DNA of 64,000 nt from Opitutales bacterium. GTDB lineage: Bacteria > Verrucomicrobiota > Verrucomicrobiia > Opitutales > Oceanipulchritudinaceae. The position numbers were made by a program, and so were the translations under genes. The notes below the pieces were generated by a model, which was not told the DNA's origin, searched no databases, and saw nothing but the letters and a program-made list of their open reading frames with translations. Below are positions 16,450 to 64,000 of this stretch, one piece after another. Within the stretch, counting starts at the first letter, position 1; each line of letters opens with the position of its first letter. The stretch spans positions 62,001-126,000 of the forward strand of contig JAFIGH010000001.1 of NCBI GenBank assembly GCA_020831525.1. The letters run 5' to 3'.

Positions 16450-16700
16450 GCACGAACCGAAAATTATCGATGCTGTCCCCGGTGGCTGATGGCCATGCGG
16501 CACCGCCCGCACCGATTCCCGAAGACCGCAAAAAACGTGCCGGATGGCCGCAATTCCGTATATTCAAAAACCGGATTTTTCCCTAGACTTTGTCCGTGCT
16601 TCGATAATGGAGCGCGGGACCGATTCCCGTAGCGCGCGATTTACCCCGGCAAGCTCCAGCCCAAATACCGCTGATACCAAAAGTGAACCTCTTTAACACG
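16450..16700. other. Intergenic leader of the beta-helix cluster
   Basis: The 250 bases carry no gene. The short AT-rich element at about 16568-16582 (AAAAACCGGATTTTT) is a near palindrome that could be an operator. The 11-mer ACCGATTCCCG occurs twice (about 16518 and 16619). A weak promoter could be read around GATAAT near 16603, but the -35 is unconvincing. Confidence 0.35.
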
Positions 16701-19313: not shown

Positions 19314-19330
19314 AGCTGGTTTTGCTCTCT

Positions 19331-19359
19331 TTTACATTGGCCAGCACGCTCTTTATTAC
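19331..19359 (+). promoter_or_regulatory. Candidate sigma-70 promoter upstream of the 19397 gene
   Basis: TTTACA (19331-19336) and TATTAC (19354-19359) are separated by exactly 17 bases and sit 37 bases before the ATG at 19397. It would allow the middle gene of the beta-helix cluster to be transcribed independently of the gene upstream. Support is by consensus match only. Confidence 0.45.
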
Positions 19360-19396
19360 ATATCCCCCTTTATTCAACGTCCAACCCTGTATACCA

Positions 19397-26824: not shown

Positions 26825-29800
26825 TCAAGGACCCTGCACGCTCATCCGCCAGAAGCGGGGAGCGCCCGGCGACGGGACGTCCGACGGGTTCACGGTGACG
26901 TGATGGACGGGGCCGTCCGTCTCTTCCGTGATGACGGCTCTTTCGGCCACCGCCGTCCATGTGTCGGCGCCCGGTTCGAGGAAGGCGATGATATCCCACT
27001 CGTCTGAGGCAAGGTCTTGTGTTTCCTCCACGACGATCAGGAACTCCACCTCGGCGCGGCGGGTGAAATGCAGGGAAATGCCCTCCCCCCCCCGCGGCAG
27101 GCCGGCATGGGGATTCTCCAGGTGGTCGAGGCCGAGGGCGTAGTCGATGACGTTGCGGATGCCGCGCTTGAAGGGATCGGCACCGGGTTCGCCGTCGGGG
27201 TGTTCGGTGTCGCCGAAGCGGTCCGCGCGCCAGTCGTTGTAACCGCTGGTGGAGCGGCGGGCTTCGATGCGCACGTTGTCGAAGACGGCGGCCGTTCCCG
27301 TGTTTCCGGCCCCGCCGTCGGCGCTGTAGCGCAGGCGCACGCGGGCATCGGCGGCATTGTTCAACGCCTCCACTTCGGCGAAGTCGAGGGCAACAAAAGT
27401 GAAACCGCTGGTGTAATCCGCGCTTTGGAGGACGGAGTGTTGCGTGTAGGTTTCTCCCCCGTCGGCGCTCCACTCGACCGTGGCCGTGCCGGGCAGGGTA
27501 CTGCGGGTTTCGTAGGCAAAGGAGATGACCGCCGCTTCAAAGCCCGTCATGTCGAAGCGGAATTCGACGACGCCGTTGTCCCAGCGACTGCCGCGGCGCA
27601 GCTCGATGCTGCCTCCGGCGGGCGTGCCGGTGGCGGCGTTGATTTCAGTGCCGCCGCCGGTTTCGCGCCGGAAGTTGGTCCCGGTCGAGGTGGCGCTGCG
27701 CACGAAGAGCACGCCCGCGCCGACGTCGGCGTCGACCATTTCTTCAAAACCGTTGGTTGTGGTGGTGGATGCAAAGTGATTGAAATTCCACTCCGCGAGC
27801 ACGGCATCCATGGACGGTAGGACGAAAATGGATACGTCGGCCGCGTCACTCACGGCATTGCCCCCGGCGTTGCTGACAACGACATCGTAGCTTCCTTCGT
27901 CCCCCGGGCCGAAGGAGCTGACGCGCAGGGTGGCAGTGTTTGCGCCGGAGACGCCCCCGCCGTCGGACAGGGCCGCGCCGTTGCGCCGCCATTGATAGGA
28001 GAACGGTGCCGAGCCGGCGGCTTCGACGGAGAGCACCAGTTCGCCGCCCTCGTTGACGGCGGTGCTCTGCGGGTGGGCCGCAATGGACGGCGCGATCAGT
28101 TCGGTGACTTCGAGCGCCCCGCCCTGGCTCACGACGCTGCCCATGTCGTTGGAGACGACAACGTCGTAGCTTCCGGCGTCGCCGTCGCTGATATCGGCGA
28201 GGGTGAGGGTGTGCGTGTGCACGCCGGAGACACGCGGCCCGCCTTCGAGCGGTTCGCCGTCCTTGCGCCATTGATAGGTGAAGAATGGCGGCGAGCCCTG
28301 GGCGACGACCGTGAACGCAATCGTCGCCGTCTCAAACGAGGTGATATCCTGTGGGTGCGAGACGATGACGGGGGCGGCCGGCTCCGTGAAGATGTCGATG
28401 ACGACCGAGGCCGTCGCCTGCATATCGGCGCTGTTCGTCGCGGTGAGCGAGAGGGTGTGCGTGCCGGGCGAGAGGTCGTCGACGGTCAACGACCCGCCGA
28501 GGCCGAGGACACCGTCGATATCGGAGGACCATTCGAGGAAGGGATCGTCCACCGGGTCCTGCCCGTCTTGCGCCGAACCGGACAAAGCGACCGGCTCACC
28601 GACATGGAACCAATCGCCGTCGGCGGGCGAGGTTATGGCGACAACGGGCGGGGCGTCGTCGGCGCCGGTGCGGTCGACGATCTGGAAGCCGAAGATGGCC
28701 GGGCGGTTGTTCCCCGTGTTCAGCTCGAGGGTCATCGTCGAACCGGTGACATTGCGCCAGAGGAGAACATTGTGCCCCTCGGCGGCCTCGCCGGGAGCGG
28801 CGGCTTCGCTCACGGTCCACGTGCCGTCGAAGCCGTGCCCGTCTTTGCGGGCGTAGCGGCTCACGCCGTTGACCTCGAAGGGGTAGGCGTTGGCGTCGGC
28901 GGCTCCGGCGTAGTAGACATAGACGTTGTAGACCGGATAGGGCACGTCCTCCACAATCCAACGCATCCCGCGGTCGGAACCATACACCTGGTGGGTGCGG
29001 GCGACTTGGGCGAGGCGCTGGTTGCCGTCCATGCGGTCTTCCAGCTCGCTTGTCACAACAACGCTGCTTTGGCGTCTCCCGTCGGATACCGTGATATCGA
29101 CCGGCTCGCCGTGGGAATCGAACCAACCGGCGGCGTAGGAGCGGGTGATCAGGTTGTTCCAGAAGGCAACGGGAACAACGCCCGCCCCAACGGTGTGGGA
29201 CATGCGGCCGGAGCGCCGGTCGAAGTTGAAGCTGATGGCGGGCCGCCCGCCGTTGGGGGGCAGCACCTCGATGGACTGGTGCGTGCCGGAGGAGCGCCCG
29301 CGCTCGTCGCGCACGATGAGGACAACATCAAACACGCCCGCCTTGTCGAAGGCGTGGCTCACGACTTCTCCGGAGGCGCGGCGGCCGTCACCGAACTCCC
29401 AGTGAAACTCCATGGCGTCGCCGTCGGGATCGAAGGTGGCGGAAGCGTCGAAGGTGACGGCGGTCCCGGCCGGGACGACCGCCGCGCCCGGCGTGAAGGC
29501 GGGCACCGGTGCTTCGTTGGGCGTGGGCGGATCGACAATAATGGTCACCGAAGCTGTATCCACGGCGCCGTTACCGTCGCGCACGGTGACGACGGCTTCG
29601 TAGGTTCCCGGTTGGAAGTAGGTGTGCTCGAAGGTATCCTGCCCGAGCAACAGATCGTGCGCATGCCCGTCGCCGAAGTCCCACGAAAAGTAGAGCCAGT
29701 CGTTGTCCGGATCGGTTGTGGCGGAGGCGTCGAACGCGACCGTGAGGGGCGGCTCGCCGCGCGTCACGGAGGCCTGCAGATCAGCCGCCGGCGGCTGGTT

Positions 29801-32800
29801 GCCGTTGATCGCGGGATCGTTGTCGAAGTAGCTGAAGACCTGCAGCTCCGTGAGTTCGACCTCCCCGGCGATCCCGCCGGACTGGTTCTCGAAACGGAAG
29901 AGGTAATGGGCGTAGGCCTCCGTGTTGGGGAGGGTATAGATGATCGGAATGATGCGGGCTTCCCCGGATTGCCCGGTGACCTCGTCGATCAAGGTCCACG
30001 ACGGATTGTCCGCGCCGGGCTCGATATCAAAAGCATCGGGATCGTTTGAACCGTAGATGCGCCAGTTCTTCGGATCACGGTTGGCGGTCCACGCAAGGCC
30101 GCCTGCGGTGATGGAGTATTCGGTGATGTTGTAGGCTTTGTCGACGCCGTCCTTTTGGAAATGGTACCAGATGTAGTCCACCGGGTTGGAAGACACCCAG
30201 CGGGTCTGGTAGGCACCGTCGCCGACCATGGCCGCTCCGAGATCGGCGCGCAGCTGACTGGAGTAGTAGAGTTGCGTGCCGGGTTCGACGGCGTGGTTCA
30301 CCGCTTCGAGAATATTCCTCGGGCTCGTGCGCCGGTCGAAGTTGTACTGCGTCGCCCCGATGGAACTCATGGGCCGCATGACGAGCCCGGCGTAGCGGGA
30401 AACGGTGACCAGTTCCCCGACCGTCTGCGTGGCGCCGCCGCTGTCGGTGACCGTGAGGACGGCGCTGTAGACGCGGTGGGCGAGATTCGAAGGAAGGTTG
30501 TAGGTGTGGGCCACGCTGCGCCCGGTGGCGGTGTTGCCGTCGCCGAAGTCCCAATGGAAGTGCAGGGGTTCGCCGTCGGGGCTGTCGGTCGTCGCTTCAA
30601 ACTGCACGGTGCCGCCGTCGTAAACGGTGGTGGGCGTGGCGCGAAAGGTGGCTTCGAGCAAATTGATGTTGGAGAAGTGGAGGCTTTCCGGAACGGGGCG
30701 AAAGCGGTCCGTGCCGGGCGGAGCCCATGTGAGGTCGTTGAAATTCGGGCGATCCCATGGGTCCGCCGGATTGTAGGTCGTTTCAAACCGGTAGGGATGG
30801 TAGCCGGCTTCGAGGGCGACAAGGGCGAGGTATTCGTGGCTGTGGGGAAACCCGCTGCCGACGATCAGCTCGCCCGAAAGGCGGAAGCGGCTCTGGTTCT
30901 GCGTGCGCATGCGGAAGGCGTAGGCCCCCGTCTCCGGCACATACAAATAGCCTTCGTAGCGGATGACGAAGAGGGTATCACGGTCGGAGACAAGGAAGTC
31001 GAGATTGGCCACGCGCCCACTCTTGAGCGGGCGCAGGGTTTCGATGTTCGGGAGGTTTGTCTCAATATTCGGATCGCCCGCGAACACCCGGTAACTCAGG
31101 CCCTGCGCAATCTCCCCGGTATCCGCCGTGGACGGGATGATACTCTCCGGCCCGAGGGCGGTGATGGTTCTGGTCCGCTGGCCCGATTTGCCCGCCGGGT
31201 CGTAGACCGTGAGGCGAACGTCGAAGTCGCCCGGGGTAGTGAACTCATGGGAGATGAAGGGCTCGCTGGTTTGCACGACGGGTGTGCCGTCGCGGAAATT
31301 CCATTCGTAGAGGAGCGGTTCACCCTCGGGATCAAACGAGTCGGAGGCGTCGAAGTTCACCGTGAAGGGCACGAAGCCGCCGAGGGAATCGAAACTGAAG
31401 TGCGCCACAGGCGGCTGGTTTTCCACCTGGATAGAGGTCCGCGCCACGTTGACGTTGCCAGCCGGGTCAGTGACACGAAGCGTGATCGGAAAGGTTGCTT
31501 CGTCCGGCCAACTGGCCGTGACGACCTCGCCGGTGAGGGTGCGTCCGTCGCCGAGAGTCCACTCGTAGGTGAGCGGATCGCCGTCGGGGTCGCTCGATCC
31601 GGAGCCGTCGAGCGTGACCTCCACGCCGGGCAGAACGATGGATTCGCTGAGAGCGATTCGCGCCGTGGGCTCACTATTGCCCACGAAGACGCGGCGGGTG
31701 GCGCGGTCCGAGCCTCCGGCCCCGTCGCGCACTTCGAGCATGACCATGTGGATGCCCTCCTCCGCGTAGGTGTGGGCGGGGTTTTGCGCGGTCGAGGTGT
31801 TGCCGTCGCCGAAGTCCCAGAAGTATTCGAGGTTCTCGCCCGGATCGGCTGTGGCGCTTGCGGAAAAGGATACGGCGAGCGGGGGCAGGCCCGATGTCGT
31901 GTTGGCGTTGATTTGCGGATTTGTTGTCGAATTGAGGTCGGTCAACGTGGAAGATTCGATACTGCCGGTCGAGGCGTTGTAGGTGAGGACGCTGTCTCCG
32001 AGCGTGACGGCGGCCCCGTTGCCGCTGCCGCTGATGTCGGCGACCGGGGGCGTGCCGCGGCCCGTGGCCATGACCGTCCAGATGTCGAGGGCCGTGGCGG
32101 GCGCGTATTCGTAGGTGACGTGGTTGTCCCCGTTGGCAAAACCCGCGCCCGGGGTGACAAACCAAATCTTCAGGTAGGCGTCGCCTTCCGTCAGCAAAGC
32201 GTAGGCCGCCCCGCTTTCGCTGCCCGTGGTAAACGATTTGCCGGGCACGAAGGCATTCCATGCGAAGGCCCTCGGGTCTTCGGCGGCCATTTCGTCGAAC
32301 GTCGAAATAATGTCGAAATCCGCCGGCGAAAAGTCCGTGAGAACGTGCCGGTGGGCATTGCTCACGCCGAGAGAGGCGAACTTCGAGCCCCCGCTGACGC
32401 GCGCGTAGCCGCCGGTGGGCGAGACCTTGTGGCCGAGGAGCGCGCCCGTGCCGGTGGATTCACGGGCCGTGCCGTCGACGAGAATTTGCGAGAAAGCGTT
32501 ATCGAGTCCGGAAGTGGCCGGCCCCGGACCCGCCGTCCACTTCGTGCCGTAGGACATGAGGCTGATTTGCCCCGCGTCGGCCTGGCTCCATGAGCGGCCG
32601 TAGTTTGTCGTATCGGCCCAGAGCCCGACGATCGTGGTGTCGGCGTCTTCCCAGCCGGAGCGGAAGATGTAGCCGCCGCGGTTGTCATTCATGACCGTCG
32701 GGTAGCTTGGCGTCGGGTCCGCCGCCGTCACATTCTCCGGGTAGAAGATGAGCCCGTAGACGGTGCCGCCGGCGTGGTAGTCGTATTTGCTGGCGGGCGC

Positions 32801-33772
32801 GGCGGGGTTGAGGATGCCGCGGGCTCGGTCGTAGAACCACGTGTAGGCGGGCAGCTCGCCGGGCGCGACGAGGGCGAAGAGCGCGCTGGTGATGCCCGCG
32901 TTGGGGATGGTGTCGCCGCCCACTCCCCATGTAAGCGAGTTTTGCGCGGCATTGAACATACTCGCATACAGGATGATGTGGTGCGGGCGGCGGGTGGCGA
33001 AGGTGGTTGTGGCGTAGGGATCGCCGATTTGCAGAAGCGCGGCCATGGCGGGAAAGACGTATTCCATGGAGAGACCGAAGTAGAAGTTGCCCTCCTGCGT
33101 CCACCCGCGGTTGCCGAAGGAATCGGGATGGACGCGCACGATGTCGCGGCTGCGCTGGAAATCGCGCCGCCGCTCGTCCATGTGCTGGTCCATGGCGATG
33201 AGCGACATGACATGCGCGCCCGCCACGACGCCGTTCCAGTTGGAATTCTGCTGCTGGTATTCAATGTTGGGGTGTCCGAGAGCGGTGCCGTAGGTGTCGA
33301 AGCCCTCGTTGACCCGCGCGCGTATCCAGTCGCGCTGTTCCTGTGTGAAACCGTCGTAGCCCCAGTTGTAGGCCATGGCGAAGCTGGCAAGGGTCTGCGC
33401 GCGCCCGAGGCCGCTGCCCGAGCTGGGCGTCGCCTGATCGTCGGGAAGGCTCACAGTGTAGACCTCCTGCAAGCGCGTGTAGGCCGTATCGAGATAATCC
33501 GTGTTGCCCGTAATGAGGTACATCAAGGTCGCCTCGCGGGCCATGTAGCCGCGCTGGTAGCTGCTCGTGCCGGGAATGTGGTTGGCCTCCACACGGGCCT
33601 TCATGGCCCCGAACATCTCGTAATGCGTCGTCCCGGGGACGGTCACAAGCGTGCGGATTTCATCGAGCCGGTCCTCGTCGACAAGAAAGAGCGGGGGCCG
33701 GCCGAACGCCGTGGCGGCGGCGATACTGAAACCCAAACACAGGAGAAGGGAACGAGGGACGGGGGATTTCAT
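26825..33772 (-). CDS. Giant secreted heparinase II/III-like polysaccharide lyase with PKD, PA14, discoidin and Ig domains
   Basis: The ATG at 33772 gives 2315 residues with a signal peptide ending ATAFGRP. An alpha/alpha-toroid (about 30-360, with QQNSNWNGVVAGAHVMSL) and a beta-sheet domain with NDNRGGYIFRSGWEDAD resemble heparinase II/III-type lyases. Then come PKD domains (FWDFGDGN, YEWTLGDG, YEWNFRDG; about 640-880) and a PA14 domain (about 905-1040, with YEGYLYVPETGAYAFRMR). Further PKD domains flank a discoidin-like domain (about 1150-1290). A malectin-like domain (about 1500-1660), another PKD-type domain and two Ig domains (about 1790-1980) follow. The protein ends with a jelly-roll (about 1984-2173) and a 145-residue tail shared with the next two genes. 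It is probably surface-exposed and acts on an acidic polysaccharide. Confidence 0.85.
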   Translation of the reverse strand: MKSPVPRSLLLCLGFSIAAATAFGRPPLFLVDEDRLDEIRTLVTVPGTTHYEMFGAMKARVEANHIPGTSSYQRGYMAREATLMYLITGNTDYLDTAYTRLQEVYTVSLPDDQATPSSGSGLGRAQTLASFAMAYNWGYDGFTQEQRDWIRARVNEGFDTYGTALGHPNIEYQQQNSNWNGVVAGAHVMSLIAMDQHMDERRRDFQRSRDIVRVHPDSFGNRGWTQEGNFYFGLSMEYVFPAMAALLQIGDPYATTTFATRRPHHIILYASMFNAAQNSLTWGVGGDTIPNAGITSALFALVAPGELPAYTWFYDRARGILNPAAPASKYDYHAGGTVYGLIFYPENVTAADPTPSYPTVMNDNRGGYIFRSGWEDADTTIVGLWADTTNYGRSWSQADAGQISLMSYGTKWTAGPGPATSGLDNAFSQILVDGTARESTGTGALLGHKVSPTGGYARVSGGSKFASLGVSNAHRHVLTDFSPADFDIISTFDEMAAEDPRAFAWNAFVPGKSFTTGSESGAAYALLTEGDAYLKIWFVTPGAGFANGDNHVTYEYAPATALDIWTVMATGRGTPPVADISGSGNGAAVTLGDSVLTYNASTGSIESSTLTDLNSTTNPQINANTTSGLPPLAVSFSASATADPGENLEYFWDFGDGNTSTAQNPAHTYAEEGIHMVMLEVRDGAGGSDRATRRVFVGNSEPTARIALSESIVLPGVEVTLDGSGSSDPDGDPLTYEWTLGDGRTLTGEVVTASWPDEATFPITLRVTDPAGNVNVARTSIQVENQPPVAHFSFDSLGGFVPFTVNFDASDSFDPEGEPLLYEWNFRDGTPVVQTSEPFISHEFTTPGDFDVRLTVYDPAGKSGQRTRTITALGPESIIPSTADTGEIAQGLSYRVFAGDPNIETNLPNIETLRPLKSGRVANLDFLVSDRDTLFVIRYEGYLYVPETGAYAFRMRTQNQSRFRLSGELIVGSGFPHSHEYLALVALEAGYHPYRFETTYNPADPWDRPNFNDLTWAPPGTDRFRPVPESLHFSNINLLEATFRATPTTVYDGGTVQFEATTDSPDGEPLHFHWDFGDGNTATGRSVAHTYNLPSNLAHRVYSAVLTVTDSGGATQTVGELVTVSRYAGLVMRPMSSIGATQYNFDRRTSPRNILEAVNHAVEPGTQLYYSSQLRADLGAAMVGDGAYQTRWVSSNPVDYIWYHFQKDGVDKAYNITEYSITAGGLAWTANRDPKNWRIYGSNDPDAFDIEPGADNPSWTLIDEVTGQSGEARIIPIIYTLPNTEAYAHYLFRFENQSGGIAGEVELTELQVFSYFDNDPAINGNQPPAADLQASVTRGEPPLTVAFDASATTDPDNDWLYFSWDFGDGHAHDLLLGQDTFEHTYFQPGTYEAVVTVRDGNGAVDTASVTIIVDPPTPNEAPVPAFTPGAAVVPAGTAVTFDASATFDPDGDAMEFHWEFGDGRRASGEVVSHAFDKAGVFDVVLIVRDERGRSSGTHQSIEVLPPNGGRPAISFNFDRRSGRMSHTVGAGVVPVAFWNNLITRSYAAGWFDSHGEPVDITVSDGRRQSSVVVTSELEDRMDGNQRLAQVARTHQVYGSDRGMRWIVEDVPYPVYNVYVYYAGAADANAYPFEVNGVSRYARKDGHGFDGTWTVSEAAAPGEAAEGHNVLLWRNVTGSTMTLELNTGNNRPAIFGFQIVDRTGADDAPPVVAITSPADGDWFHVGEPVALSGSAQDGQDPVDDPFLEWSSDIDGVLGLGGSLTVDDLSPGTHTLSLTATNSADMQATASVVIDIFTEPAAPVIVSHPQDITSFETATIAFTVVAQGSPPFFTYQWRKDGEPLEGGPRVSGVHTHTLTLADISDGDAGSYDVVVSNDMGSVVSQGGALEVTELIAPSIAAHPQSTAVNEGGELVLSVEAAGSAPFSYQWRRNGAALSDGGGVSGANTATLRVSSFGPGDEGSYDVVVSNAGGNAVSDAADVSIFVLPSMDAVLAEWNFNHFASTTTTNGFEEMVDADVGAGVLFVRSATSTGTNFRRETGGGTEINAATGTPAGGSIELRRGSRWDNGVVEFRFDMTGFEAAVISFAYETRSTLPGTATVEWSADGGETYTQHSVLQSADYTSGFTFVALDFAEVEALNNAADARVRLRYSADGGAGNTGTAAVFDNVRIEARRSTSGYNDWRADRFGDTEHPDGEPGADPFKRGIRNVIDYALGLDHLENPHAGLPRGGEGISLHFTRRAEVEFLIVVEETQDLASDEWDIIAFLEPGADTWTAVAERAVITEETDGPVHHVTVNPSDVPSPGAPRFWRMSVQGP

Positions 33773-33831
33773 GGGATTCAATTATGGAGGGGATTCTGAA
33801 AAGTAGACGAAAACTTGGAGGAGAAGGCAAA

Positions 33832-36800
33832 TCACTCCCCAATCCCGACACGCAGCCGCATGAAGCGAGGACCGCCGACCGTCGGCGGACCGGAAGGATG
33901 CGTCACGAGAACATGGCGGATGTCGCCGGTCCCGGTTTCCTCAACCAGTGCGGGACCGGTCCATGAGGCGGCACCGGGCTCGAGCGTGGCGGCGGGAGTC
34001 CAGTCTTCGGCGCCGAGGGTGGACGACGTTTCAATGATGAGACGGGCGGCGGAATCCGCGCGCCGCGTGAATGCCAGCTGGAAGTCACCGGACAGACCGG
34101 GCATGCCCGCACGGACATCTTCGAGAAAATCGAGCCCGAGGGCATATTCCACGGCATTGGGAATCCCTCGCTGGAGGGGATCCACTTGCGGTGCTCCCGC
34201 CGGGTCATCCATGCCGCCGAAGCGCTCAATGCGCCATGCCGCGTAGGTGCCGGGCGTCGCTCCCGCCGGTGCCCAGACTTCGATACGCACATTGTCGAAT
34301 CTTGCCCCCAGCCCCGAGCTGCCCGCCCCGCCGTCGGCGCTGTAGCGCAGGCGCAGGCGCGCGTCGGCGGCACCGGCGAGTTCGGAGATGCCCTCGAAAT
34401 CCAGCTCAATGCGGGTGAGGCTGCCGTAGTCCGCAGTCTCCAAGACGGTGTATTCGGAGTAGGTTTCCCCGCCGTCGGCGCTCCACTCCACCGTGGCCGT
34501 GCCCGGCAGGGTGCTGCGGGTTTCGTAGGCAAAGGAGATGACGGCGGTCTCATAGCCGGTCATATCGAACCGGAACTCAAGGTAACCGTTGTTCCAGCGC
34601 TCGCCGCGGCGCAGTTCGATGCTGCCGCCGGCGGGTGTGCCTTCGGAGGCGTTGAGGTCGGTGCCGCCGCCGGTGTCGCGGCGGAAGTTGGTCCCGGTCG
34701 TTGTCGCGCTCTGCACGAAGAGTGTGCCCGTGCCGACATCGGCGTCGATCATTTCTCCGAATCCGTTGGTTGTTGTCGTGGATTCGAAGTGGTTGAAATT
34801 CCATTCGGCAAGGACGGCGTCCGGCGGCGGCGGAATGAAGGCTTCCACGAAGACCGGCGCGCTCACCGCCGTTCCGCCGAGATTCGTCACCACGACATCG
34901 TAGCTCCCGGTATCGGAAAGGCGGATACCATCGATGACGAGCCTGTCGCTTTGCGTGCCGCTGAGGACATCGTCATCGGAAAGGTCCGCACCATCGCGCC
35001 GCCACTGGAAGGCGATGGGATCGGAGCCCGCAACCTCAACCGAGAGTTCGGCCACGGCGTCGACCCTGAACCGTCCGCCCACGGGATCGGCGAGAATGGA
35101 CGGGGCCACCGGCTCGAGGACCGTAAGCTGCGCTTCGGCGCTTTCCGCCGTGCCCTCGGTATTCGTCACCTCGACACGGTAGCTCCCCGCATCGTCGGCT
35201 TCCAGACCGCTGATGGTCAGTTGCGCCGTCGCCGCGCCGGAAACGCGCCCGCCGTCGGCGAGGGGTTCGTCACCCTTGAACCACTGGTAATCGAACAACG
35301 GCGGCGAGCCGGTCGCGGCGACGCTAAAGACCGCCGCGCCGCCGCGGAAGGCTTCCGTGTCCTTCGGCTGCTCAACAATCGCCGGAGGCGCCGGAGGCGG
35401 GTAAATGTCGATACCGACCGTCACCGTGCGGCTGCCGCCGTCACCGGTGGCGGTGAGGGAGATTGTGTGTGCGCCCGTGGAAAGGGTGTCGACTTCGAGG
35501 AAGGTTCCCGTGCCGAGGGTGCCGTCGAGATCGGACGACCAGACAAGAAGCGCCGGGTCCAAGGGCGTATTCGTCCAATCGACGGCGCTGCCGGCGAAGG
35601 TGACGCTGTCGCCGACGAAGAAAAAGTCACCCTCGGCGGGCGCGTCCAGCGTAACCGTGGGCGGCGGCTCGGGACGCTCGTACGATCCCACGGCAAAGAA
35701 GGCTCCCGCCGGATTGTCCGGGTCACCCGGCTCGGGTTGCGGGGCGTTGATGGTGTAGAGGCGGGTTTCCTGGATGCCGCCGCCGCCCTCCCCGTCGACA
35801 CGGAAGCTGCCTGTCCAGCCGCCCCACGCGACCGTCGGCCGGTTCAGGCCATCGCGGAAATCGACCGTTACGGCGGCGGCATTTCCACCGCTCAGCCGCG
35901 TCGTGAATTCGCGGATACTCAGCGTCGGATCCATGATGATAAGATACGCTCCGCCGGTGTAAACCGCTTCGTCGGCCCACGGATTGAAGGTGGCTTCGCC
36001 GGGACTCGGCGAATAGCCTTGGAAGCCCTCGATGGGCATGCCGCTGGCCGTCGCCCCGACCATGAAAAGCCGCCCGTCGGCGTCGACGGCGAGTTCGCCG
36101 TCGCGGATTCGCCAGCCGTTGCCGGCGTAGGCGCTGCCGGTCCAGAAGCGGGTGAGGAACTCCTGCCCGGTCAAGTGCTCGCCGGTATCGGGATCGTAGC
36201 CCACGACGACCGTCTTGTGTTCCGCGCCGGTGTTGAAAAAGTGGTGGAACATGTCGCCGCGCACGAGGGGCGCGGGCACGAGAAGGTTGTCGTTGTTCGG
36301 GTCCCATGCCGCCGCGCGGAGAAAGATGTGGTTGCCCCCGGCGGCCTCGTAGGCACCGTAGAGGTAGCCGTCGAGTCCGAGGTGGACGCGGTAGCCGCGG
36401 GTATCGGCCATGAGGTTGGTGAAGGGGCGGTCGTAGGGTCCGGTGCAATCCGGCTCAAGGATCGGGGCCGGCCAGTCGTAGTTGAGCCAGAGGACATTGC
36501 CCTCGAAGTCGACCGCCCGCAGGTAGGCGATCTGGACGGGATTGCAGCCGCTGTTGGACTGCCGCCAGCCGATCTGGTAGAGGACCTGGCGGCCTTCGTC
36601 GAGGGCGATATCAAAGGTGCGCCGGTAGTTGGAGATGATGCGTTCGTTGGAGCCGTCCGCGTTGAAAATGTGCGTGTTGCTAGTCTGCCGCGCGGCCACC
36701 AAACCGGAGGGGGCCACGTCGACGTCCCGGAACTCAAGGTCGGGCCGGGCCATCCAGAGCACGGAGGTATCCGCCGGGTCCAGTTTGATGAGCCCCGACC

Positions 36801-37158
36801 CGCTGCCGATGTAGGGATGCCCGGCAGCGTCGGTGTCGAGGTGGAAGACTTCGTCCGCCACCCGCACGTAGGCAAGGACCGTCCGGCCGGTGGCATCGAG
36901 GTGCAGATAGACGCCCTGTGAAGATTCCGTGGCCCCGGCAAGGAGGGCCGGGGTGCCCGCCCAAGGCAGTTCGCCCTGCACCTGCGCGACGACGTAGATG
37001 GAGCCGTCCGGCGCAATGCGCATCCCGCGCACCTCGTCGCCCTGCGCGCCGCCCATCCACGAACTCGTGATGATGTCATAGGGCTCCTGCGCGGGCAGCG
37101 CGGCAAAGAAGCCGGGAAGGATGAGGAGGGTTCGAAAAGCAAGGCGGGATAATTTCAT
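33832..37158 (-). CDS. Secreted beta-propeller protein with Ig domains and shared C-terminal module
   Basis: The 1108-residue protein starts MKLSRLAFRTLLILPGFFAALPAQEP, a clear signal peptide. Residues about 30-500 form a propeller of NHL/SBBP style, with units such as MRIAPDGSIYVVAQVQG, HLDTDAAGHPYIGSGSGLIKLD and HLGLDGYLYGAYEAAG. A PKD-like domain (about 510-600) precedes two Ig domains (about 605-790: YQWFKGDEPLADGG and FQWRRDGADLSDDD). The last 330 residues are the jelly-roll, beginning AVLAEWNFNHFEST, and the tail beginning AAWRIERFGGMDD, as in its two neighbours. No catalytic family is recognised. It begins 51 bases upstream of the 37210-41697 gene's stop and ends 60 bases before the lyase start. 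Role in binding or presenting polysaccharide is inferred. Confidence 0.82.
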   Translation of the reverse strand: MKLSRLAFRTLLILPGFFAALPAQEPYDIITSSWMGGAQGDEVRGMRIAPDGSIYVVAQVQGELPWAGTPALLAGATESSQGVYLHLDATGRTVLAYVRVADEVFHLDTDAAGHPYIGSGSGLIKLDPADTSVLWMARPDLEFRDVDVAPSGLVAARQTSNTHIFNADGSNERIISNYRRTFDIALDEGRQVLYQIGWRQSNSGCNPVQIAYLRAVDFEGNVLWLNYDWPAPILEPDCTGPYDRPFTNLMADTRGYRVHLGLDGYLYGAYEAAGGNHIFLRAAAWDPNNDNLLVPAPLVRGDMFHHFFNTGAEHKTVVVGYDPDTGEHLTGQEFLTRFWTGSAYAGNGWRIRDGELAVDADGRLFMVGATASGMPIEGFQGYSPSPGEATFNPWADEAVYTGGAYLIIMDPTLSIREFTTRLSGGNAAAVTVDFRDGLNRPTVAWGGWTGSFRVDGEGGGGIQETRLYTINAPQPEPGDPDNPAGAFFAVGSYERPEPPPTVTLDAPAEGDFFFVGDSVTFAGSAVDWTNTPLDPALLVWSSDLDGTLGTGTFLEVDTLSTGAHTISLTATGDGGSRTVTVGIDIYPPPAPPAIVEQPKDTEAFRGGAAVFSVAATGSPPLFDYQWFKGDEPLADGGRVSGAATAQLTISGLEADDAGSYRVEVTNTEGTAESAEAQLTVLEPVAPSILADPVGGRFRVDAVAELSVEVAGSDPIAFQWRRDGADLSDDDVLSGTQSDRLVIDGIRLSDTGSYDVVVTNLGGTAVSAPVFVEAFIPPPPDAVLAEWNFNHFESTTTTNGFGEMIDADVGTGTLFVQSATTTGTNFRRDTGGGTDLNASEGTPAGGSIELRRGERWNNGYLEFRFDMTGYETAVISFAYETRSTLPGTATVEWSADGGETYSEYTVLETADYGSLTRIELDFEGISELAGAADARLRLRYSADGGAGSSGLGARFDNVRIEVWAPAGATPGTYAAWRIERFGGMDDPAGAPQVDPLQRGIPNAVEYALGLDFLEDVRAGMPGLSGDFQLAFTRRADSAARLIIETSSTLGAEDWTPAATLEPGAASWTGPALVEETGTGDIRHVLVTHPSGPPTVGGPRFMRLRVGIGE

Positions 37159-37209
37159 ATACGTTACGTTTACAGGATGGGGAGGGCGCGTAGGCGGTGT
37201 CGGCGAAAG

Positions 37210-40200
37210 CTAGGGGGTCTGCAAACGCAGCCGCATAAAGCGACGCTCCCCACGGGCGGGCGGTCCGGAAGGATGGGTCACCGTGACTTCGTGCGTTTCG
37301 CCTTGCGGCACCTCGGTGACCGGCGCCGGTCCCGTCCATTCCGCGCTGCCGGGCTCGAGGACCGCGATAATGTCCCAAAACGGAGCACCCAGCTCGTCCG
37401 TCGCTTCGATGACGAGGAGCAGGTCGAGGTCGGCGCGGCGGGTGAAGCGCATCTCCCAGCCGTTCAAGGCGCGCGGCAGTCCATCGCGCAGCGCAACCAG
37501 ATGGTCGAGCCCAAGGGCGTACTCGAGAGCATTGACGATGCCCCGGCCCAACGGGTCGAAGCCGGGCGCTCCGGCGGGATCGTCTATATCGCCAAAACGA
37601 GCCGTGCGCCATTCGTCGTAACCGCTCGTGGAGCGGCGCGCCTCGACCCGCACATTGTCGATTGCCGCGCTTAGTCCGGAACTGGCGGCTCCGCCGTCGG
37701 CGTTGTAGCGCAGGCGCACGCGGGCTTCGGCCACGTCGTTGAGGTCGTCGATTTCGGAGAAATCCAGCTCCACCACGGTGAAGCTGCCGTAGTCCGCGTT
37801 GGTGAGGACGGAGTGCTCCGTGTAGCTCCCACCGCCGTCTGCGCTCCACTCCACCGTGGCCGTGCTGGGCAGGGAACCTCCCGTGCGGTAGGCAAACGAA
37901 AGCACCGCCGCCTCATGGCCCGTCATGTCAAAGCGGAACTCGAGGTAGCCGTTGTTCCAACGCTCGCCGCGGCGCAACTCGATGCTCCCGCCGGCGGGCG
38001 TGTCGGCGGAGGCGTTGAGGTCGGTGCCGCCGCCGGTGTCGCGGCGGAAGTTGGTGCCGGTCGTTGTCGCGCTCTGCACGAAGAGTGTGCCCGTGCCAAC
38101 ATCGGCGTCGATCGTTTCTCCGAATCCGTTGGTCGTATCGGAGGATTCAAAGTGATTGAAATTCCACTCCGCGAGAACGGCGTCAATCGGCGGCAGGACA
38201 AAGACCAGAACCCGCGCGCTCCCGCTGACAACCTGTCCGACAAGATTGGTCACAATGACGTCGTAATCGCCCTCGTGCGACAACCCCACTCCGTTGATCG
38301 TCAGGGTGGCGGAGTTTGCGCCGGAGACGGCTCCGCCGTCGGACAAGGCTTGACCGTTGCGGCGCCACTGGAATTCGAAGGGTGCCGAACCCTCCGCTGC
38401 AACGGAAAGCTCAATCGTCAGCCCCGCCTCAAAGGAACCGCCCTGCGGGGCCTGCACAATTTCCGGCGGAACGGCTTCGCTCAAAGCCAATACAGCCGCA
38501 ACGCTGGAAACCGTCCCGTCCGCGTTGCTGATGACCACATCATACTCGCCCGCGTCGGCCGGTGTGAGGTCGGAGAGCACAAGTACAGAGGACCGGGCAC
38601 CGGCGACGCGCGTCCCGTCGGTCAGCGCCGTCCCGTTGTGCCGCCACTGGTATTCCATCGGTTCGCCGCCTTCGGCGATTACAGTGAACTGCGCGTGTCC
38701 GGTGAAAAAGGCGTCTTTGTCCTCCGGCCCCTGAAGGATCACCGGCGGGTCCGGGGGCGGGACGACGCCCGAGGTTAATTCGCCGGAGGCGGCCGTCCAA
38801 ACCACACCTTCGGTGTTTTCCGCGCGGAAACGGTAGAAATAGGTGGTCTCGTCCTCAAGACCGGCAAGGGTGTGGGCCATGCCGCCGAGGGCGTGGGTTC
38901 CGAGGTTCGTGCTGTTTTCCCATGCGGCGGGATCGGTTCCGCCGTCGGTCGTTCCGTAGTGGAGCGTGACATTGATTTCCGAGGCCCCGTCGCGCAGAAA
39001 TGCCCGGACGACGGCGGAGTCATGGCTGATCTCAGCCGGGGCGCGGGCTTCGAGCACGGGCGGTCCTTCGCCTTCCGAGGGAATGCGCAGGTCGAGGGCG
39101 TAGATCCCGCGCGCGCCGCGGATAAAGAGGCGCCCGTCGGAATAGGCATGGCTGGTCAGCACCGGGGTGTAGGAGCTGGTGTCGCGGAAGGCCGGTCGCC
39201 ACTCCGGGGCAAGGCGGGAGAACGACGCGCCGTCGGCAAGGAAAAGGTTCAGAGGGGTATCGCTGTGCGTGGCGTCATTCTGGATGATGAGGCGGTCGTC
39301 AAACCACTGCGTGAAGCCGTTGTTCCAGTTGTTTCCGGCTGTCGCAAGGATCTCCCCGCTGGCGAGATCGAGCATGAGTGCGGTCGATCCGTCACTCTGG
39401 AAGTAGACACGCCCTTCTTTGATCACCGGGATGGTGCCGCCGCGTGCGTCGTGGCCGTAATTGCCGGCGAGGCTCCATGCAAACTCCGCGCCTTGCGGCG
39501 TAATGGTGTAGGCACCGAGCCGGTCGGGTTCGCCGCCGAGACCGCCGACATTGAGGAGCAGATGTCCTTCGCCCACCGACATCGTGTATTCATTGTTCCC
39601 CACGCCGGACAACTCCCATTGGATGGCCCCGGTTTCGGCCTTCACACAGACGACGCGCCCGCTTCCGTTGCCCGTGATGATGTAGCTGGTTCCTTCGTGC
39701 CGCCAGTGCAGCGGTGAGGCACCATCCGTGCCCGCGTTGGGAATCTCCCAGAGGGTCGCGCCCGTATCCGCGTCGAGGGCGCGCAGATGGGTGCCCGAAA
39801 AGACGGCCATCCCGTCGAGGGCGACGGCGTAGCGGTTGCCCGTGGAGCGCGTCCACAGCAGCTCACCCGTGTGGGCGTTGAAGCCGAAGGTCCGGTTGTT
39901 GCTGCCGTGCACGTAGACGCGCCCGTAGCCGGCCGCCGCCTTCGCGGTGTAGGCACCTTTGGCAATGCCGGTACCGTCCCAGCCATGGTAGCGCCCGCCC
40001 GGCACGCCCGTCTTCCACACCGTCGCCCCGGTGGCGGCGTCGATGGCAAGGACCACATCCTCTGCTTCGACCGTCCACATTTCCACGCCGAGGGTGCGGT
40101 TGCCGTCAGCCATCTCACTCGCCGGATAGCCGACGAGTTCCTCGCCGTAGGGACGGAAAAAATACTGGAAGACCATGCCGTGCGCGACCACCGGACTGGA

Positions 40201-41697
40201 ACCGCCGCCGGCCGCGCCGCCGCGCTCAATGTAGCGACTGATGTTGCTTTCGCCGTAGCGCGTTGTTTGCGCGCGCCCCGGCGGCACATGCTCGCTGCGC
40301 CAGAGCAGGCGCGCGTCGTGCAGGTTTTCGACGAGCGAATAGTTTCCACCGCGCAGTGCCGCCATGTTCGACTCCGGACCGTTCCATGCGGGCCAGTCGA
40401 GAGCCTCGTCAAGGGCATAGGCCGTGCGCAGATCCAGGCCGTCGCGGGCTTGACCCGATAACGACCCGCCCACCGGATGAACCGGACCGAAAATGCACGA
40501 AAAGCTGCCCGCCAATTCGGCGCCCTCCGCGTTGGCCGCGAGGGTGTAATCGACTTCGAACGGATGGTCGGCGGCGACGATCGCCCCTCCGGGAAAATAC
40601 ACCCGCAGCGTGCCGTCCAGCCCCCCGGCGCTCACATTAATTCCGTCGACATCCACGTCAAAGCGGTGGGTCACATCCGGGCGCAGGGCCACGCCTTCGA
40701 CAAAGGCACCGTCGCGGTAGAGCAAATTGAGCCGCAGTGTAAGGCCCGACTCGATTCCGTCCTTTAAATCGAGAATGTAAATGCGGTCGTTTTCCGGCTC
40801 GTAGAGGCCCGTCGCCGTTCCCGCGAGAAAGGAGCTTTGGCTCGGTGAGCCGTTCAGCAGGGAAGAGAACGACCCCGTGACCTCGTTGTTGCTCACAACC
40901 CCTTCGAAGCTCACCGTGTAGATCCCGTCCTGCGTGCGCGGGCCGCCGCCGGTGATCTCCATGACAACGGTTCCGGAGACCTCGTCGCCGATGTAGGCAA
41001 TGTCGTGTTCGAGGATCTCCGCCGACCATGTGAACGAGGGGCTGTCCCTACCGTGGTCGACGCGGACGTTGGCGACTTCACCTGCGTCGATCTCGAAACT
41101 CAGCGTGATATAGCGGGTGATACTCAGCGATCCGACCAGCAAGTGACCGCTGTGGAGCGTGAATGCCGTCGGACGGGCGTCATCCGCCGGGGCCTCGTAG
41201 CGGCCGGAGAGCGTGTTCTCGACAAAGTCGCCGTAGGTGAAGAGGCGCACCTGGTCGGGGGTGACGAGGAGTTCATCCGTCGAATAGACGCGGCGGCTGG
41301 TCCGCACCGCATAGTGCCCCGTGTAAGCTTCTTCGATGACGGATTCGCCGAGGGCAAAATCAAGGTCGTAGACCCCGCGGTACATCACCCCGTCCACATG
41401 AATCCACACATCGACTTCGCCGGTGAGGCGACCGTCCTCAGCCCCGAGGGCGGAAGCGTCGACACGCTCGGCGACCAAATCCCCGCCCGGCACGGTTGCC
41501 CATTCCTGGCGGATTTCCCCGCCTTGGTAGCCGAAGTGGAGCGTAAGGTCGCGCCCGCCCGGCAGGGCCTCCGTCAACGTCAACTCATAGCGTGTGAAAG
41601 GTTCCCCGCCGAGAAAGGTGTGGTTCGGCGGAACGGCCTGTGCGAGGGAGGCAAAGGCCGTGAGGATGAATACGAGGTATAAGGGGGAGGAGTTCAT
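37210..41697 (-). CDS. Secreted PQQ-type beta-propeller protein with Fn3, Ig and shared C-terminal module
   Basis: The start is ATG 41697 (MNSSPLYLVFILTAFASLAQAVPP), a good signal peptide; in-frame sequence upstream is non-coding. The product has 1495 residues. About 20-420 is beta-rich and unrecognised. About 425-855 is a PQQ/quinoprotein-type propeller with repeated blades such as VLAIDAATGATVWKTGVPGG, GFNAHTGELLWTRSTGN, LRALDADTGATLWEIPNAG and VVCVKAETGAIQWEL. A fibronectin-III-like domain (about 870-965) and two Ig domains (about 970-1155) follow. The jelly-roll and tail module shared with the two downstream genes completes it. A quinoprotein dehydrogenase is possible, but a binding or scaffold propeller is as likely, because no PQQ-site Cys-Cys pair was noted. 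Confidence 0.82.
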   Translation of the reverse strand: MNSSPLYLVFILTAFASLAQAVPPNHTFLGGEPFTRYELTLTEALPGGRDLTLHFGYQGGEIRQEWATVPGGDLVAERVDASALGAEDGRLTGEVDVWIHVDGVMYRGVYDLDFALGESVIEEAYTGHYAVRTSRRVYSTDELLVTPDQVRLFTYGDFVENTLSGRYEAPADDARPTAFTLHSGHLLVGSLSITRYITLSFEIDAGEVANVRVDHGRDSPSFTWSAEILEHDIAYIGDEVSGTVVMEITGGGPRTQDGIYTVSFEGVVSNNEVTGSFSSLLNGSPSQSSFLAGTATGLYEPENDRIYILDLKDGIESGLTLRLNLLYRDGAFVEGVALRPDVTHRFDVDVDGINVSAGGLDGTLRVYFPGGAIVAADHPFEVDYTLAANAEGAELAGSFSCIFGPVHPVGGSLSGQARDGLDLRTAYALDEALDWPAWNGPESNMAALRGGNYSLVENLHDARLLWRSEHVPPGRAQTTRYGESNISRYIERGGAAGGGSSPVVAHGMVFQYFFRPYGEELVGYPASEMADGNRTLGVEMWTVEAEDVVLAIDAATGATVWKTGVPGGRYHGWDGTGIAKGAYTAKAAAGYGRVYVHGSNNRTFGFNAHTGELLWTRSTGNRYAVALDGMAVFSGTHLRALDADTGATLWEIPNAGTDGASPLHWRHEGTSYIITGNGSGRVVCVKAETGAIQWELSGVGNNEYTMSVGEGHLLLNVGGLGGEPDRLGAYTITPQGAEFAWSLAGNYGHDARGGTIPVIKEGRVYFQSDGSTALMLDLASGEILATAGNNWNNGFTQWFDDRLIIQNDATHSDTPLNLFLADGASFSRLAPEWRPAFRDTSSYTPVLTSHAYSDGRLFIRGARGIYALDLRIPSEGEGPPVLEARAPAEISHDSAVVRAFLRDGASEINVTLHYGTTDGGTDPAAWENSTNLGTHALGGMAHTLAGLEDETTYFYRFRAENTEGVVWTAASGELTSGVVPPPDPPVILQGPEDKDAFFTGHAQFTVIAEGGEPMEYQWRHNGTALTDGTRVAGARSSVLVLSDLTPADAGEYDVVISNADGTVSSVAAVLALSEAVPPEIVQAPQGGSFEAGLTIELSVAAEGSAPFEFQWRRNGQALSDGGAVSGANSATLTINGVGLSHEGDYDVIVTNLVGQVVSGSARVLVFVLPPIDAVLAEWNFNHFESSDTTNGFGETIDADVGTGTLFVQSATTTGTNFRRDTGGGTDLNASADTPAGGSIELRRGERWNNGYLEFRFDMTGHEAAVLSFAYRTGGSLPSTATVEWSADGGGSYTEHSVLTNADYGSFTVVELDFSEIDDLNDVAEARVRLRYNADGGAASSGLSAAIDNVRVEARRSTSGYDEWRTARFGDIDDPAGAPGFDPLGRGIVNALEYALGLDHLVALRDGLPRALNGWEMRFTRRADLDLLLVIEATDELGAPFWDIIAVLEPGSAEWTGPAPVTEVPQGETHEVTVTHPSGPPARGERRFMRLRLQTP

Positions 41698-41826
41698 GAC
41701 AATGAAGGTGAGGATTTTGACTGAAGGGCAAACGAAGGGCGGACACCGATTTCGACCGGATTCTCCCTTACGAAACAAGAGATCCCATCGCCGGTGCCCG
41801 GCGTGAATAAGAACAATAATCGTTTT

Positions 41827-41832
41827 ATTATA
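41827..41832 (-). promoter_or_regulatory. Candidate -10 element (TATAAT on the minus strand)
   Basis: A perfect TATAAT reads on the minus strand about 130 bases before the ATG at 41697. It is embedded in an AT-rich island (TATAATAAAACGATTATT) that is unusual in this GC-rich DNA. No good -35 hexamer was found at the expected distance, so the call is tentative. Confidence 0.35.
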
Positions 41833-41940
41833 CCGGAATCTCCGGAAAACCGCCACCCGTTTCTGCGGCGGGAAACGACGGAATTGCGCCCCTTCTCCGG
41901 GCCGGGACGCACAGCGGATGCCGCCCGTCCGGTCAAAGAC

Positions 41941-41976
41941 AGAAAAACCGCCGCCGGAAAAGCCCCGGCGACGGTT
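41941..41976 (-). terminator. Rho-independent terminator of the PEP-CTERM gene
   Basis: On the minus strand AACCG-T-CGCCGG pairs with CCGGCG-G-CGGTT across a 7-base loop (41946-41976), followed by TTTTTCTGTCTTT. It lies about 40 bases after the stop of the 42017 gene and before the next gene on the same strand. Confidence 0.8.
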
Positions 41977-42016
41977 GAAATTCGTTGTCAATGCTTCGCG
42001 GAGCCGCGCTGACCGC

Positions 42017-42946
42017 TCAGCCGCGGCGGCGCCGCCAAAGGACAAACCCAAGGGCGAACACTCCGAAAATCGCGGCGTAAACACGGGGCTCGGGGATGCC
42101 GAGCACATCTTCGAGGCCGCTTTGGCCGGACCGGGCGGACACCCGCAGATCGTCCCAGTTGGCTTCTTTGCCCCCTGTCGTTTCGATGCTCTGGCCACCC
42201 ACGTTGATCGTATTGATGCTATCGCCCCAGTCAATGGTGTCCGAGGTGAGGTGGGGAGCACCGAGCGAAACAAGGTCGACCGGAACACTGGCGTCGTCGC
42301 CGTAGAACCAGAGGTCGACTTGGTCGTCGGCTGACTCATTAATGTTCACCCGTGCGAGGACGAGATTCCAAGTATTCGCGGTTGCGGAGGGACCTGTCTC
42401 GATAATCGACAATCCATTCGCTACGACAAAATTCAAGGTCCCGCCGCCGCTGTTATAGACTCCGAAGCCCTGACCGTTGGGGCTGGAGTTGGATGTGCCG
42501 CCGGTATTCAAAGAAAGGAGCGTGATCGACCCGTTGTCATTGGTCATTCCAACCGGATTCACAAACGCCGAGATCCAGAATTCACCGGACAGGGCCTGCC
42601 CGAGGGCGGCGTTGCTGCCCCGCCAATCCGAGCTGTTTGATTGACCGCTGTTCAAATATCCGCCCGCGTGGGTGGGAACATAGCCCGTGCCTGTGAAACT
42701 GAGCTGACCGCCTTGGCTCGAATCACGGTAGCGGATATTGTTCGTGCCCCCAGTCCAGCCGGGCGCGTTAGCGATGTTTTCATTGTTATTCAATGTCCCG
42801 TCATAGTCGAAGTATTCTTCGAAAACGAGAACCTGTGCCGAGGCCGTGGCGCTGAAGGCGAAAGCCGTACCGGCAAGAAGGAGGAGTTGTTTTCCAATGT
42901 TCATAAGCGTATGTGGATTTTCGGAATGAGATAGCGTTTTTTTCAT
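42017..42946 (-). CDS. PEP-CTERM sorted jelly-roll protein
   Basis: The ATG at 42946 gives 309 residues; the internal ATG at 42904 (MNIGKQLLLLAG) is an alternative start that leaves a compact signal peptide ending ATASAQ. The mature part (about 40-275) is a single beta-sandwich of the concanavalin/laminin-G-like type beginning VLVFEEYFDYDGTLNNNEN. The C-terminus IPEPRVYAAIFGVFALGFVLWRRRRG is a textbook PEP-CTERM signal: PEP motif, hydrophobic helix and basic tail. It would be processed by an exosortase, which is not encoded in the window. A strong terminator follows. Its opening motif (FEEYFDYDG) resembles that of the 59370 protein (YEGFDYEVE). Function is unknown; exopolysaccharide or cell-surface association is typical for the sorting class. 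Confidence 0.85.
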   Translation of the reverse strand: MKKTLSHSENPHTLMNIGKQLLLLAGTAFAFSATASAQVLVFEEYFDYDGTLNNNENIANAPGWTGGTNNIRYRDSSQGGQLSFTGTGYVPTHAGGYLNSGQSNSSDWRGSNAALGQALSGEFWISAFVNPVGMTNDNGSITLLSLNTGGTSNSSPNGQGFGVYNSGGGTLNFVVANGLSIIETGPSATANTWNLVLARVNINESADDQVDLWFYGDDASVPVDLVSLGAPHLTSDTIDWGDSINTINVGGQSIETTGGKEANWDDLRVSARSGQSGLEDVLGIPEPRVYAAIFGVFALGFVLWRRRRG

Positions 42947-43171
42947 AGTATGGATGTGTCTCTTCTCCTTGGGGTAGTTGGTTGGTATTCTTGCAGCGAC
43001 CGCCGCCCTCATGATTGCAAAGAGAGGAGAGGGACTGAAGCCATGAGTTACGTAGTATCCACGTTTTTCCTTGCGTAGACAACCCATGGTTGCGACAATG
43101 TTTTTTATCCTTTGCGACATGCGCGCTTTGCGCCTTTGGAACACACAGAATCAACCCCCGGAAATTCCGAC
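42947..43171. promoter_or_regulatory. Divergent control region with spaced direct repeat
   Basis: This gap lies between the PEP-CTERM gene and the XylR-like gene. TTGCGACA occurs at 43090-43097 and again at 43112-43119, 22 bases apart (about two helical turns), each followed by ATG or TG. The repeat could bind the adjacent regulator. No confident -10/-35 pair was assigned. Confidence 0.4.
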
Positions 43172-44530
43172 ATGGCCCCTTCCCCCCTACCGCCCCGATC
43201 CTCCGGTTGTTCCGTGGACGAGCCGGTCTATTATGTCCTCGGCGGCAACCAGCAGATCGGCTTGCCCGCGATGCAGGGGGCGACCCGTGCCGCATCCATG
43301 CGGCGGGCGCAATGCATCCTATACCGGTGGATGGATTGGGAGCGCGGGGCGCTGGAATTGCCGGAGGTCCATGGTGCCGTGCTCACAGCGGCGTCACCGA
43401 AGCTGTGCGCTTTCCTCCGGGACCGGTCTTATCCGGTCATCAACATGAGCAATGCCTCCGGGCCCAAAGAGGGCATGGGAAATATGCTCAGCGACGATGC
43501 CGCTGTCGGCCGCCTTGCCGCCGTGTTTCTCCGGCAGCGCGGATTCCGCCGGTTTCTTGTCATCTCGGCGGGCGCTGGATGGATCGCCCATGAGGAGCGC
43601 GCCGCAGGGTTCTGTGAGGCGATCCGGGAGGCGGGGTTTCCGGTCGAACACGAGAGCGTTTCGATACGGAGTGATTCTTCCGTGAAGAGAACGCCGAAGG
43701 GTTACATCGATTTCATGCGCGCCCAAATGAGCCGATTCCTTGCCACCACCCCCCTCGGCTGCGGGATCTTTGCGACCAACGATGACATCGCTCTCTTTGC
43801 GCAGCAGGTCATGCGTGGCTTCTATCCGGAGCATCTCGACGCCTCCGGCGTACTCGGGGTCGACAATACTATGGAAGGCACCGGCTACTACGGAACCCTG
43901 CCCGGTCTCTCCTCCATTGTTCCCGCCTTCGAAGAGATGGGAGCGGCGGCCATGGAATGGCTTCTCGACCATCCCGGCGCGTGCGGCAAGCCGATCGTTT
44001 CAGACGTGCTCCGGCGCTTCCCGCCAGTCGATGTGGTCGAACGGTCGTCCACCGCCACCGGTGCCTGTTCCGACCCCCTCACGGCGCGGATCATCCGTTG
44101 GACCTGGGAGCAAATGTGCCGGGGCGAGCGGATCCACGTGAGCGACATGGCGCGTTTCCACGGGCTCAACCGCAAAGCCCTCGAGCGCCGCTTTGCCCAA
44201 TTCACCGACGGCACGCCCGGCGATCTCATTGCCCGGCTGCGCCTCGACAGAGCCCGCAATCTTCTCCGCACCACCCGGCTGAGCATCGCGGAGATCTCCG
44301 AGACATGCGGCTACGCCAAGCAGGACGTTCTCTCCCGCGCCCTCCGCCGCGAAAACGGATGCACCCCCATTGAATTCCGCAGGAGCGCGCAAGCGGAGAG
44401 GGCCGCAGCCGACCGCGCCCGGATTGCCGGTCGTGCGGTCCCTCCGGATCAGGGCATGTCCACGCGCAGTCGCCAGAAACGGGGCGAGCCCGGCAACGGG
44501 GTATCGGGGGGCGTCACGGTAACGCGATAG
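43172..44530 (+). CDS. XylR-like regulator (sugar-binding fold plus AraC HTH) with an acquired C-terminal tail
   Basis: The ATG at 43172 (MAPSPLPPRS) gives 452 residues. A LacI/PBP-type sensing domain (about 18-300) includes FLRDRSYPVINMSNASG, AAVFLRQRGFRRFLVISAG, GCGIFATNDDIALFAQQV and GVLGVDNTMEGTGYYGTLPGLSSIVP. The AraC HTH (about 312-410) contains VSDMARFHGLNRKALERRF and IAEISETCGYAKQDVLSRALRRENGCTPIEFRR. After the HTH about 45 basic residues continue to 44530, antisense to the decayed gene remnant at 44449, so this tail is probably read-through after rearrangement. It is divergent from the PEP-CTERM gene and likely senses a sugar. Confidence 0.88.
   Translation: MAPSPLPPRSSGCSVDEPVYYVLGGNQQIGLPAMQGATRAASMRRAQCILYRWMDWERGALELPEVHGAVLTAASPKLCAFLRDRSYPVINMSNASGPKEGMGNMLSDDAAVGRLAAVFLRQRGFRRFLVISAGAGWIAHEERAAGFCEAIREAGFPVEHESVSIRSDSSVKRTPKGYIDFMRAQMSRFLATTPLGCGIFATNDDIALFAQQVMRGFYPEHLDASGVLGVDNTMEGTGYYGTLPGLSSIVPAFEEMGAAAMEWLLDHPGACGKPIVSDVLRRFPPVDVVERSSTATGACSDPLTARIIRWTWEQMCRGERIHVSDMARFHGLNRKALERRFAQFTDGTPGDLIARLRLDRARNLLRTTRLSIAEISETCGYAKQDVLSRALRRENGCTPIEFRRSAQAERAAADRARIAGRAVPPDQGMSTRSRQKRGEPGNGVSGGVTVTR

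Positions 44531-60691: not shown

Positions 60692-64000
<3,309 letters not shown>

Follow-up and report, generated by a model that had tools for sequence, protein, structure and literature searches.

Three adjacent giant genes of an Opitutales bacterium share two separable C-terminal domains, a jelly roll homogenised between neighbours and a tail found across the Verrucomicrobiota

The stretch of Opitutales DNA analysed here (the window: 64,000 nucleotides, positions 62,001 to 126,000 of contig JAFIGH010000001.1) carries three adjacent giant genes on the minus strand, A, B, and C, whose products end in a common block of about 320 residues starting with AVLAEWNFNHF. The block had been proposed by a model working from the letters and open reading frames of the window (the sequence-only reading), and it was borne out; a degenerate DNA pattern for the motif occurs exactly three times in the whole genome. 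The jelly roll and tail of that reading are both present, with approximately 185 and 135 residues, respectively, and alignment extends the shared region, as two immunoglobulin (Ig) domains also precede them in all three proteins. The genes and their domains are the following:

26825..33781, minus strand: gene A, 2318 residues (open reading frame and translation, Pfam, ortholog in genome G176, locus L101)
33832..37158, minus strand: gene B, 1108 residues (open reading frame, Pfam)
37210..42339, minus strand: gene C, 1495 residues from a probable real start codon at 41697 (open reading frame, Pfam)
27242..27805, minus strand: jelly roll of A, with the short linker to the tail (alignment)
34246..34818, minus strand: jelly roll of B, with the short linker to the tail (alignment; AlphaFold2 model and fold search)
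37621..38181, minus strand: jelly roll of C, with the short linker to the tail (alignment)
26828..27241, minus strand: C-terminal tail of A (profile match 1.7e-33)
33835..34245, minus strand: C-terminal tail of B (profile match 1.7e-32)
37213..37620, minus strand: C-terminal tail of C (profile match 5.7e-33; AlphaFold2 model with a predicted local distance difference test score, pLDDT, of 85)

Ahead of the two Ig domains, the jelly roll, and the tail, the product of gene A has a signal peptide, an undefined 'lyase-like' N-terminal domain, six PKD domains, and a PA14-like domain, that of gene B a signal peptide and a propeller-like N-terminal region, and that of gene C a PQQ propeller. The N-termini had been read as a lyase, an NHL-like propeller, and a PQQ propeller, and Pfam confirmed the last of these, whereas no Pfam or NCBIfam model matched the 'lyase' domain of A, which also had no PDB sequence match, or the 'NHL propeller' region of B. 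Paralogs of the latter region, about 40% identical, occur in other proteins of the genome that carry the tail. The true start of gene C is probably 41697 rather than the edge of the open reading frame at 42339, and it gives the N-terminus MNSSPLYLVF with a signal peptide. In a genome of the sister genus, G176, the ortholog of gene A is 58.9% identical over 2313 residues; its neighbour is a regulator related to the one at 43112-44530 of the window, and B and C do not lie between them. From this gene order, B and C may either have been gained in the lineage of the window or lost in that of G176.

The sequence-only reading had taken the jelly roll and the tail together as a module that may serve for surface anchoring or secretion, and they are instead two unlinked units, probably distinct in function. 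In two other proteins of the same genome (C173 and C42), a clear jelly roll stands right after the signal peptide and the same open frame closes with a tail some 840 residues further on, a separation for which a single unit was rejected. In whole-genome searches, the paralogs of the gene B propeller and a protein that starts like the N-terminal domain of gene A likewise carry the tail with no clear jelly-roll match. The two units also differ in spread and position. The jelly roll is confined to a few Opitutales, with matches in 4 of 103 genomes of the order, and it is penultimate in the gene A ortholog (L101) and N-terminal, directly after the signal peptide, at three other Opitutales loci (L102, L103, and L104). 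It is never terminal in any protein and, in fusions with lyase-type proteins, can stand towards either end, so the expectation that the module would not lie mostly at internal positions failed for the jelly roll and held for the tail.

The jelly roll is also where the DNA of the neighbouring genes is most alike. B and C share an identical run of 49 nucleotides (34644-34692 and 38007-38055) and another of 41 nucleotides (34694-34734 and 38057-38097), with a single mismatch between them, giving the following pair of tracts:

34644..34734, minus strand: tract of B, 90 of 91 bases as in C, a probable recent conversion tract
38007..38097, minus strand: partner of this tract in C (DNA comparison)

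In a null in which the proteins were kept and synonymous codons were redrawn at random, none of the 5000 simulations reached a run of 49 nucleotides (mean 18.5, maximum 47), and the identity of B and C over 130 codons was 0.83 compared with 0.745 ± 0.016 under the null. This near-identity is restricted to the jelly roll of B and C. The tail DNA is 57-60% identical, a value typical of long-diverged paralogs, and the jelly-roll DNA of A is 77-78% identical to that of B and C, so the near-identical DNA that the sequence-only reading had ascribed to all three shared ends is confined to one domain of two genes.

A comparison of paralogs with an ortholog, for which the gene A ortholog of G176 served as the reference, places the same boundary. 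The Ig domains of A are closer to the ortholog (0.688) than to B or C (0.559 and 0.553; p = 1.8e-7 and 4.2e-8), the jelly roll of A is closer to B and C (0.769 and 0.784) than to the ortholog (0.668; p = 2.1e-5 and 7.5e-7). For the tail of A, paralogs and ortholog do not differ (p = 0.93 and 0.19). These p values are guides only, as sites are not independent draws, and the weight lies on the reversed direction between adjacent domains. In a nucleotide tree of the jelly roll, A, B, and C form a group that excludes the ortholog; the protein tree gives a less clear picture, with A pairing with its ortholog at modest support (0.78). Because the jelly roll is closer to its paralogs while the Ig domains and the tail are not, the comparison supports gene conversion or recent copying, which had been suggested for the whole shared end, for the jelly roll only. 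Short gene-conversion events would keep the jelly-roll DNA alike in neighbouring genes.

Two other accounts of this pattern were weighed. The sister genus has only the gene A ortholog at this locus, so B and C may be young, and the likeness could then stem from whole C-terminal blocks having been duplicated in tandem in a simple, recent event, with no gene conversion. However, a single event predicts similar divergence of the Ig domains, the jelly roll, and the tail, and the DNA identities instead suggest old Ig domains and tails (55-60%) and a young jelly roll (77-78%, and locally 99% between B and C), which makes this account improbable. Selection on the jelly-roll protein combined with local codon bias might also mimic homogenisation, as the jelly roll is the most conserved part of the proteins (60-92% amino acid identity by segment). 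We regard this as very unlikely, given that B and C are more alike at the synonymous level than the codon-usage null predicts and that the ortholog is less alike although its protein is under similar constraint. An assembly duplication artefact was rejected as the main explanation, as divergence varies along the genes and a decayed fourth copy differs. That copy (about 44452-44771, minus strand), detected by sequence searches of the genome, is frameshifted, and the stretch between its two fragments is deleted:

44691-44771, minus strand: jelly-roll fragment
44452-44691, minus strand: last ~83 residues of the tail, in a different frame

Upstream of the fourth copy, more broken coding sequence extends to about 45400. 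We found no description in the literature of domain gene conversion in Verrucomicrobia, and the locus shows that homogenisation can act on a single domain of adjacent genes as the domains around it diverge.

An AlphaFold2 model of the jelly roll of B, made from the sequences of the window and of L101-L104 (mean pLDDT 77.6), was compared with known structures in a Foldseek/VIA fold search and resembled the carbohydrate-binding module (CBM) CBM4-2 (Z 14.0, 2.8 Å over 155 residues), the MAM domains of meprin (Z 13.8), and the adhesin domains of gingipain (Z 12.7). A PDB sequence search with the jelly-roll profile gave nothing significant. The window is rich in genes for carbohydrate-active enzymes (GH106, GH95, GH39, GH2, and an esterase). 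The jelly roll therefore likely binds carbohydrate, as its predicted CBM4-like fold, its fusions to lyase-type proteins, and this gene neighbourhood suggest, and it would be a lineage-specific domain of the carbohydrate-binding type that targets an enzyme or propeller to a glycan. The source is best explained as a polysaccharide-eating bacterium of the Verrucomicrobiota, and the products of A, B, and C as exported proteins of several domains, encoded in a cluster for polysaccharide degradation. Positions 14665-59179 of the window form a carbohydrate-degradation island, in which GH39, GH2, GH95, and GH106 enzymes and a sialate-type esterase are accompanied by a sodium symporter and two XylR-like AraC regulators.

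The tail is an uncatalogued C-terminal domain on approximately 80-100 exported proteins of this genome, and it occurs across the phylum. A profile built from 23 tails of the genome matched 99 places in it at E <= 0.01, while no Pfam or NCBIfam family covers the tail in these 23 sequences and a PDB sequence search with the profile gave nothing significant. The tail is C-terminal in 76 of the 80 resolved proteins of the genome, 70 of which end within 15 residues of the match, and in all 53 open reading frames checked from other genomes (within 16 residues). By a simple home-made rule, signal peptides were called in 69 of the 80 tail proteins compared with 24 of 546 control open reading frames, in line with the expectation that the module would not occur mostly in cytoplasmic proteins. 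Its cargo, from a scan of the members, includes subtilases, lamin-tail (LTD)/CotH, pectate-lyase-like, LamG, and RCC1 proteins, endonuclease I, and glucose dehydrogenase, among others. One tail-bearing protein matches the Hcp family of the type VI secretion system in its N-terminal part (9.6e-23). Within the window, three large exported-type proteins (1989-5564, minus strand; 16683-19313 and 19310-21934, plus strand) have a divergent tail at the end (E 8.5e-9 to 6.5e-4).

The proposed profile search across the Verrucomicrobiota found the tail in at least 47 of 145 sampled genomes at E <= 1e-10, a lower bound given that at most 29 candidates were scored per genome. With all candidates scored in 12 chosen genomes, tail counts ranged from 57 to 0, and this variation is present within a single family (f3), where four genomes have 57, 33, 19, and 12 tails (G137, G085, G088, and G045) and three related genomes of similar size have none (G010, G140, and G119). 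Two tail matches contain one in-frame stop, TAG or TGA (G131:C34:44115-44483, locus L235, and G085:C13:21007-21357), and possibly belong to decaying genes. Many tails start with a DPxGDGxxN-type loop and a helix. The last element of the tail is an RFLRLRV-like beta strand, and the C-termini listed show neither a transmembrane helix nor a basic end. Modelled by itself, the tail consists of helices, a loop, and a six-strand sandwich.

From its position, the signal peptides, and the cargo, and by analogy with the C-terminal domain (CTD) of the type IX secretion system (T9SS), the tail may have a role in export or surface retention. It would act after Sec export as a C-terminal handle by which proteins are carried across, or held at, the outer membrane or the cell surface. 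As a whole, the locus is best explained by a putative sugar-targeting jelly roll homogenised by conversion and a phylum-wide tail that would serve export or surface retention, a reading to which we assign a probability of about 0.5. A narrower proposal is put forward tentatively and is on balance doubtful: the Verrucomicrobiota would have an undescribed system for export or anchoring at the outer membrane, separate from T9SS, exosortase, and GspD-type secretion, and the tail would be its C-terminal address.

Several results weigh against a role in export. Four of the 80 tails are internal or N-terminal (L185-L188; what follows them, named by eye, is SUMF1-like in two, a kelch-like propeller, and a pectate-lyase-like domain), so the tail is not bound to the C-terminus in the way of a strict sorting signal. 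The fold search with the tail alone returned generic Ig-like matches, such as antibody domains at Z about 6 (best Z 6.4), with no T9SS CTD structure among the fold matches listed; these matches were read as a common Ig-like arrangement rather than as membership of a family. The association with a conserved secretion machinery that the sequence-only reading had anticipated did not emerge from profiling of the families chosen, which were exosortase, the T9SS protein SprA, and GspD. Exosortase is common in the phylum and present in most of these genomes, and it does not track the tail, being present in tail-free genomes and without a match in G113, which has two tails. GspD-type secretins, whose presence would be expected to follow the tail if it marked type II secretion substrates, occur in Opitutales with many tails and in those with none, and in two Akkermansia-sized genomes with the tail only the C-terminal secretin part is present. 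SprA was found in 0 of 145 Verrucomicrobiota genomes in a search in which no control genome gave a match either. None of the three tracks the tail, with that limit for SprA, and the tail is not explained by exosortase or GspD systems.

The same observations would fit an ordinary accessory or capping domain that provides stability, calcium-dependent rigidity, or ligand binding and has spread by shuffling with no targeting information. The displaced tails, the lack of a machinery that tracks the tail, the generic sandwich, and the helix and DPxGDGxxN element, which recalls calcium-binding loops, all favour such a domain, and we consider it a serious possibility, if somewhat short of an even chance. 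However, the strong C-terminal bias in this and other genomes and the dozens of unrelated cargos would be unusual for a mere accessory domain. Under the export or surface-retention reading, the tail would have wider implications, as the Verrucomicrobiota have many giant degradative enzymes with signal peptides, and we know of no established route that puts these outside the cell. We found no description in the literature of a C-terminal sorting domain of Verrucomicrobia or a related secretion route. The tail, which neither Pfam nor NCBIfam contains, provides a concrete handle for finding such a route and a rule for simple annotation across the phylum; if the dedicated system exists, it would serve dozens of degradative enzymes per genome.

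Among known systems, jelly rolls of the CBM4/CBM22 and MAM types share the predicted beta-sandwich fold of the jelly roll of the window (Z about 14 and 13.8, ~150 residues), whereas their sequence identity to it is only 8-11%, and no Pfam CBM family matched A, B, or C. The start of many tails, a DPxGDGxxN-like motif followed by a helix, is reminiscent of the calcium loops of TSP3 and dockerin domains, but the 23 tails have no Pfam match to either, and the tail has a single loop and then a beta-sandwich. PEP-CTERM/exosortase sorting, first described in PMC1569441, resembles the tail in that a region of C-terminal homology is shared by many exported proteins and its copy number is patchy. However, the C-termini listed for the tail have no PEP motif, hydrophobic helix, or basic end, and in G113 the tail occurs without an exosortase match. 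The subtilases, endonuclease I, LTD/CotH, pectate-lyase-like, and LamG proteins of the tail cargo are of the kind to which the T9SS CTD is attached in extracellular proteins of Bacteroidota. Unlike that domain (Por_Secre_tail), the tail matches no CTD model of Pfam or NCBIfam and has an additional N-terminal helical DPxGDGxxN part and occasional internal copies. Both are small beta-sandwiches that close many otherwise unrelated extracellular proteins exported by Sec, in some cases behind an Ig-type domain; the T9SS CTD is itself a C-terminal Ig-like sandwich, with an IgSF-CTD (immunoglobulin superfamily-CTD) arrangement in RgpB (PMC4804311). The sandwich of a T9SS CTD has seven strands, and the model of the tail has six, with generic Ig-like matches. 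On the export or surface-retention reading, the tail would follow the logic of the T9SS CTD with an unrelated sequence.

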